From Chachezhania sediminis (lineage in GTDB: Bacteria; Pseudomonadota; Alphaproteobacteria; Rhodobacterales; Rhodobacteraceae), in NCBI RefSeq assembly GCF_009765275.1, contig NZ_VOPH01000002.1:558001-622000 (forward strand): DNA of 64,000 bases, written 5' to 3'. The translations under genes were made by a program, and so were the position numbers. The notes beneath the pieces were generated by a model. The model was not told where the DNA came from. It saw only the letters and a list, made by a program, of their open reading frames with translations, and did not search any database. This document shows positions 40,042 to 42,171 of the stretch, piece after piece (positions within the stretch are counted from its first letter, which is position 1; every line of letters begins with the position of its first letter).

Positions 40042-40599
40042 TCAGACCCGCAATCCGGCGCGATAAAGCTGTGCCAGCCGTTCGAAGGGCCGGGCATTCT
40101 GTTCGGCGACGGCCAGCAGCCAGGCGCCTTCCATCTGCATCAGAACCAGGTCGGCCACGTCATGCGGTGTCGGATGACCCAGCCGAGCCGCGTGCATCAC
40201 CAGGCATTCGCCCCAGCTTTTCAGCACCTGTCGCGCCGCCTCGCGCAGCTCCGGCTCTGACGTCGAGGCCTGCAGGACGCTGGCCACCGGGCAGGCCTCG
40301 ATCATCTTGCCGGGTTGCAGGAAGTCCGCGATCTCGTCACAGAAGGCCGCGGCGCCGGCACCGAAACTGTCCGCGTCCCCGAAGGCGCGGTTGACGATCT
40401 TCTCGACCGTCCGGCCGGCGGCCAGCGTCGCCTGCGTGGCCAGGTCCCGCTTGCCCCCCGGGAAGTGATAGTAGAGCGACCCCTTTGGCAGGTCGGCGGC
40501 CTTCAGGATCTCGGCCAGGGCCACGCCGTGATAGCCCCTCTGCCGGAACAGCAGCGCGGCGGCACGGATCAGGGCGTTTCTGTTTTCCGAAGTGACCAT
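40042..40599 (-). CDS. TetR-family transcriptional regulator
   Basis: A 185-residue regulator: N-terminal HTH NALIRAAALLFRQRGYHGVA and EILKAADLPKGSLYYHFPGG, C-terminal ligand domain about 50-185. The start is ATG 40599 (MVTSEN). It is divergent from an alpha/beta-hydrolase gene, and two tandem operator-like dyads lie in the 86 bp between them, so it likely represses itself and the hydrolase. Ligand unknown. Confidence 0.9.
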   Translation of the reverse strand: MVTSENRNALIRAAALLFRQRGYHGVALAEILKAADLPKGSLYYHFPGGKRDLATQATLAAGRTVEKIVNRAFGDADSFGAGAAAFCDEIADFLQPGKMIEACPVASVLQASTSEPELREAARQVLKSWGECLVMHAARLGHPTPHDVADLVLMQMEGAWLLAVAEQNARPFERLAQLYRAGLRV

Positions 40600-40617
40600 A
40601 GGTCCATTTTGCACCCT

Positions 40618-40660
40618 GTAGACCACATGGTCTACGGTCTTCCTGGACCATGCGGTCTAC
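40618..40660. promoter_or_regulatory. Two tandem TetR operator candidates
   Basis: GTAGACCACATGGTCTAC (40618-40635) is a perfect 8-2-8 inverted repeat; CTGGACCATGCGGTCTAC (40643-40660) is an imperfect second copy offset by 25 bp. Both lie between the divergent TetR gene and the hydrolase gene and are the likely binding sites of the TetR protein. Confidence 0.75.
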
Positions 40661-41537: not shown

Positions 41538-41558
41538 GGCCGGCGCGGACTGCGCAAT

Positions 41559-41703
41559 TATTTTTACCATCTGGTCAAGAGTCCACTGTGCCGGCGGAAC
41601 GCCGTATTCCAAAATTTGACCAGGCGATAAAAATTCTAACGGGACCTTTCCCATTGCGCCGGCCATTCGTGATCATCGCCAATTTTGACCAATCGATCAA
41701 AAT
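41559..41703. promoter_or_regulatory. Three copies of a TTGACCA-N2-CGAT operator-like motif
   Basis: Site A is inverted at 41559-41578 (minus strand: TTGACCAGATGGTAAAAAT); site B at 41616-41634 reads TTGACCAGGCGATAAAAAT; site C at 41685-41703 reads TTGACCAATCGATCAAAAT. All share TTGACCA-N2-YGRT-N-AAAA and lie in an AT-rich patch upstream of the acidic hypothetical gene. The core GACCA-N2-TGGT is shared with the TetR dyads at 40618-40660. Confidence 0.55.
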
Positions 41704-41805
41704 CCCATTGCCTTGAACCTGCCTGGTCGGGGACATGCCCTTTCCGGCCCTTCCGCGGGCAGTCCAAATCCTGTACGGCGGGGGCGCGCAAGGATGGGGC
41801 GAGAG

Positions 41806-42171
41806 ATGTCCGAGAAGGTGAAACGTCCGCAGGAGGTCTTTACCCTGCTGGTACAACTGGGCCGCAAGGCCGGCGATGGCCTGCCCGAAGGGGCGACAGG
41901 CGCGGCGCTGATGGTCTATGCCTCGGGCGTGGACGAGGCCGAGGCGGTGCGCGAGACGGTGGCGATCCTGAAACAGGCCGACACAGCACCCCTGGACGTG
42001 ACCGGATACGGCACGCTGGCCGAGCGCGAGGCGCAGGGCCACGAGATCGACGAGGAAGAGCGCGCGCTGATGGACCGTGCCCTGGCCGAGAATTCGGTGA
42101 TCGTGGCCCAGATGACGCCGTTCTTCGGGGATGACGGATTCGACGACGAGGACGACGACGAAGACGAATAG
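41806..42171 (+). CDS. Hypothetical acidic protein
   Basis: A 121-residue protein of unknown family: MSEKVKRPQEVFTLLVQLGR, a central region VYASGVDEAEAVRETVAILK and a highly acidic C-terminus GDDGFDDEDDDEDE. No signal peptide or membrane segment. Start 41806 is chosen (an in-frame ATG at 41794 is also possible). The upstream gap holds the three repeated operator-like sites, so expression is probably regulated. Confidence 0.6.
   Translation: MSEKVKRPQEVFTLLVQLGRKAGDGLPEGATGAALMVYASGVDEAEAVRETVAILKQADTAPLDVTGYGTLAEREAQGHEIDEEERALMDRALAENSVIVAQMTPFFGDDGFDDEDDDEDE

Follow-up and report, generated by a model that had tools for sequence, protein, structure and literature searches.

Three operator-like boxes lie in a 268-bp intergenic segment (41538–41805) between the end of an alpha/beta hydrolase gene (41537) and a conserved gene (41806–42171, plus strand) whose product of 121 amino acids has an acidic tail, raising the question of which regulator reads them and with what effect. 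In the window, meaning the whole 64-kb stretch of DNA analysed, the exact pattern TTGACCANNYGRTNAAAA occurs three times only, at 41561–41578 on the minus strand and at 41616–41633 and 41685–41702 on the plus strand, a number far above chance that bears out the first-pass annotation in its claim of three copies, one inverted, upstream of the acidic gene. With up to two mismatches the window holds five matches, all at the places of the triple, against an expectation of 0.12. The sites are better described as 20-bp near-palindromes with the RutR-type pattern TTTKAYCR-NN-YGRTMAAA. Box 1 (TTTTTACCATCTGGTCAAGA in plus-strand letters, 41561–41580) has its better arm on the minus strand and lies one mismatch from the palindrome TTGACCANNTGGTCAA; box 2 (ATTTGACCAGGCGATAAAAA, 41614–41633, plus strand) is a hybrid of rutR-type and preT-type half-sites; and box 3 (TTTTGACCAATCGATCAAAA, 41683–41702, plus strand) completes the triple. 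The palindromes are imperfect: box 1 departs from the E. coli consensus at one position, box 2 at three and box 3 at two. Their centres fall about 236, 183 and 114 bp 5' of the start codon of the acidic gene and are separated by 53 and 69 bp, so that of the spacings given previously (about 56 and 69 bp) the second stands and the first is slightly too long.

The AT-rich setting described for these sites is likewise apparent, with 51% G+C in 41538–41712 compared to 66% across the window, and an A+T-rich segment could in principle generate such likenesses by chance. This explanation is extremely improbable: none of 3,000 dinucleotide shuffles of the intergenic region reached the best, second or third matrix score of the real sequence, and the three exact matches compare with 0.14 expected in 64 kb even when one mismatch is allowed. 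Other signals in the segment were also considered. A candidate intrinsic terminator (41543–41565) matches the consensus, but its folding is no better than that of shuffled sequences (z 0.24), and a structured RNA was rejected as the segment has no Rfam match. A simple scan for sigma-70-like promoters returned no match on the plus strand; the only match is on the minus strand and overlaps box 1.

The identity of the motif is most readily seen from its distribution in the family. Of 29 other genera, 26 have the sequence TTTGACCANNTGGTCAAA, or a close variant, upstream of the RutR orthologue, and these 26 boxes, with sequence from the genome under study excluded, provided a first matrix. Applied to the whole window, this matrix ranked box 1 (25.0 bits), box 3 (24.1) and box 2 (15.7) first, second and third, with the next site at 8.6 bits. 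A second matrix, built from the rutR boxes together with those upstream of preT (dihydropyrimidine dehydrogenase; family box ATTTTACCANTTGATAAAAA), gave 31.1, 25.5 and 25.4 bits for boxes 3, 1 and 2, followed by 7.3 bits elsewhere in the window. Among 42 genomes that have RutR, 40 carry the pattern TTKAYCRNNYGRTMAA without mismatch at preT, compared to 1 of 6 in which RutR was not detected (Fisher p = 7e-5, a value that is optimistic because the genomes are related); the single exception, G028, is an assembly only 86% complete. The half-sites TTTACC and GATAAA, found in boxes 1 and 2, also occur in the RutR-associated preT boxes, and these variants thus belong to the RutR motif. In several genera (L083, L084, L088, L089 and L102), the preT promoter has a pair of RutR-type boxes spaced by about 17 bp.

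The consensus core of the E. coli RutR box is TTGACCA-NN-TGGTCAA, and the first matrix, applied to E. coli, recovers the carAB site TTTTGACCATTTGGTCCACT at 21.4 bits and gives the top site in the rutR–rutA interval 11.4 bits. carAB is an established target of RutR, which binds a palindrome of approximately 16 bp (PMC10891134). One RutR orthologue is encoded in the genome, on a contig other than that of the triple (C23:332171-332866). It matches solved RutR structures (E 4.6e-56), shares 92 of 178 residues (52%) with E. coli RutR, and has in common with it the SKxNLLYYFPSK segment, which is found in no other of the 30 TetR helix-turn-helix regions read from the 42 TetR proteins of the genome. 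Against the two NCBIfam models for RutR it scores 232 bits (curated cut-off 368) and 211 bits (curated cut-off 230), below the threshold in both cases and far above its scores against every other model. It lies beside genes of reductive pyrimidine catabolism, which, named from their translations, encode a beta-ureidopropionase/allantoate-type hydrolase, a hydantoinase, PreT and PreA.

Proximity had instead favoured the YxaF/LmrA-like TetR regulator encoded at 40042–40602 on the minus strand. Its operators, TAGACCACATGGTCTA and TGGACCATGCGGTCTA, lie between tetR and the hydrolase gene (40617–40659, sites at 40619 and 40644) and are of the TAGACC-N4-GGTCTA type known for NemR, LmrA and YxaF; a search of the literature on the LmrA/QdoR box returned nothing decisive. 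The first-pass annotation equated the core of the triple with that of these dyads and proposed that the same TetR protein, or a relative, could act at both. The shared core GACCANNTGGTC is indeed present, but it is all that the two have in common, as the outer bases are TAGACC and GGTCTA at 40619 and 40644 and TTGACC or TTTACC at the triple, where none of the three boxes matches TAGACCNNNNGGTCTA within two mismatches. With the second matrix the local operators score -11 and -13 bits against 25–31 bits for the triple, and the recognition segment of the local protein, PKGSLYYHFPGGK, differs from that of RutR. Moreover, the one congener compared (G198) retains operators at the same place (TAGACCATACGGTCTA and TAGACCATATGGTCTA), whereas the triple is absent there. 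That this protein binds the triple in addition to its own promoter is therefore very improbable, despite the common core and its proximity, and it was rejected on operator sequence; the suggestion of a relative is the part that survives, as the operators are of a TetR-family type for which RutR is a possible reader. Given the TAGACC-type operators at its promoter, kept in the congener, the local TetR protein and the hydrolase gene most likely form a pair that is autoregulated through an operator unlike the triple.

Another candidate would be a different regulator that recognises a similar palindrome and has no connection with pyrimidines. Pattern searches with TTKAYCRNNYGRTMAA, rather than a matrix scan, returned nine matches in the 5.6-Mb genome, three of them the triple (reversed control, one), while the congener has two, located 3.9 kb apart and identical in their letters to the preT and rutR boxes of this genome. 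Additional dyads at pstS, at a transketolase-like/GntR pair and at a transporter suggest a possible second reader, as perhaps also at clpB. Conversely, both half-site variants of the triple are found in RutR-associated boxes, and no second TetR protein with the RutR recognition segment is present among the 30 read, such that another regulator is an unlikely reader of the triple.

Elsewhere in the genome, a strong RutR-type box (33.9 bits) lies approximately 140 bp upstream of pstS, which encodes a phosphate-binding protein (C1:148222-148241; L006:2023-2042), and could possibly link pyrimidine sensing to phosphate uptake. Upstream of clpB (C12:923612-923669; L008:2013-2070), three 20-bp dyads, ATTTGACCGATTGGACAAAC, CTTTGTCCAATCGGTCAAAC and CTTTGATCATTTGGACAAAA, are arranged head-to-tail with a 19-bp period; they are RutR-like, yet one arm of each reads TTTGTCC. 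A RutR-like dyad, TTTTGTCCGCTTGGTCAAAA, precedes a xanthine-dehydrogenase-like operon (C10:40052-40071; L007:2053-2072), and contig C29 carries RutR-type boxes at two places, one between a GntR-family regulator gene and transketolase-like genes (L010:2000-2019), the other preceding an operon for a peptide-type ABC transporter (L011:1985-2004).

In the congener the tetR, hydrolase, acidic and DUF454 genes occur in the same order, with a hydrolase–acidic gap of about 64 bp that holds no box, so that a segment of approximately 200 bp carrying the boxes in the 268-bp gap of this genome is absent there. A BLAST search of the segment against 394 family genomes returned its own copy and a single 32-bp match, at chance level and in sequence without a box, and no RutR box was found upstream of the acidic-gene orthologue in the best relatives from 29 other genera. 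The triple is thus not conserved, an outcome that the first-pass annotation had named as refuting its reading, and the arrangement is lineage-specific, with comparison to a single congener compatible with gain or loss. A multicopy repeat or mobile element was rejected as the source, as no second copy of the segment, the 32-bp match aside, occurs in the genome or the relatives searched. Nine family-motif sites in this genome compared to two in the congener look like a recent expansion of the regulon.

These same observations lend some weight to the view that the boxes bind RutR but regulate nothing; the lineage-specific piece of about 200 bp would then carry either the remains of a promoter segment or a cluster of decoy sites. 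The segment is missing from the sister species and the other family genomes searched, the simple scan finds no plus-strand promoter match, and there is precedent for RutR boxes at places where the consequence is unknown (PMC10891134). Three good boxes nevertheless persist directly 5' of a conserved gene, and most of the other matches in the genome for which the surroundings were read are also intergenic; boxes without effect are accordingly a minority expectation, though a more serious one than a different regulator.

The gene downstream is real: of 198 family genomes, 178 have an orthologue, and in some relatives it adjoins dapD and/or dapE (named from translations). Its product matches no Pfam or NCBIfam family; a structure model (mean pLDDT 81.5) suggests a mixed beta/alpha domain and has no significant match in the PDB.

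Taken together, the triple probably represents boxes of the uracil/thymine-sensing RutR, acting in trans on the acidic gene. It should be noted that several points count against this reading: the imperfect palindromes, the NCBIfam scores below cut-off, a target with no known link to pyrimidines, boxes that are not conserved at the orthologues and the lack of a plus-strand promoter match in the simple scan. In this reading, RutR would bind as dimers at the triple and would repress rather than activate the acidic gene, its presumed target, keeping transcription low. By analogy to E. coli RutR the gene may respond to uracil: as uracil or thymine builds up, it would bind RutR and release it from the DNA, and the acidic gene would be expressed. 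Each box could overlap the promoter or add occupancy, and several boxes might provide higher occupancy or tighter repression. Looping, as proposed in the first-pass annotation, is not supported because the coordinates would place box 3 on the other face of the helix; a spacing of 53 bp corresponds to roughly 5.0 helical turns and one of 69 bp to roughly 6.6, leaving only boxes 1 and 2 in phase, and a simple loop was rejected on this basis.

The best reading is that a gene both conserved and uncharacterised has been recruited to the RutR (uracil) regulon in a lineage-specific manner. The more specific scenario, in which a family-wide gene beside dap genes came under uracil control in one lineage through a cassette of approximately 200 bp with three RutR boxes, is a tentative one with the odds somewhat against it. 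The sites are of an ordinary kind, RutR boxes, at an unexpected and lineage-specific place; the operators reported previously are real and the regulator assigned to them was wrong. Orphan operators can in this way be assigned to a named trans regulator, which corrects the earlier guess that the adjacent TetR protein reads them. Uracil can also be offered as a testable signal for a conserved gene whose function is unknown; under the cassette scenario, if true, its product would add a new physiological output to those of pyrimidine sensing.

Comparison to known systems places the triple among, and somewhat apart from, familiar operators. With the operators of the NemR/LmrA/YxaF type it shares the GACCANNTGGTC core and the TetR family, while their TAG and CTA outer bases are absent. 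The likeness to the E. coli RutR boxes (carAB P1 and rutR/rutA) includes the 16-bp palindrome TTGACCANNTGGTCAA, a RutR orthologue in the genome and recovery of carAB by the same matrix. The triple differs from the E. coli boxes and from the regulons predicted across the Proteobacteria (PMC5343134) in having spaced boxes upstream of a gene without a pyrimidine or purine assignment and without conservation in relatives. The boxes of the family at rutR/hyuC and preT have the degenerate motif and the half-site variants in common with the triple, and several preT promoters also have two boxes in a row, but these are conserved across the family and lie about 17 bp apart when doubled, whereas the three boxes described here are 53 and 69 bp apart.
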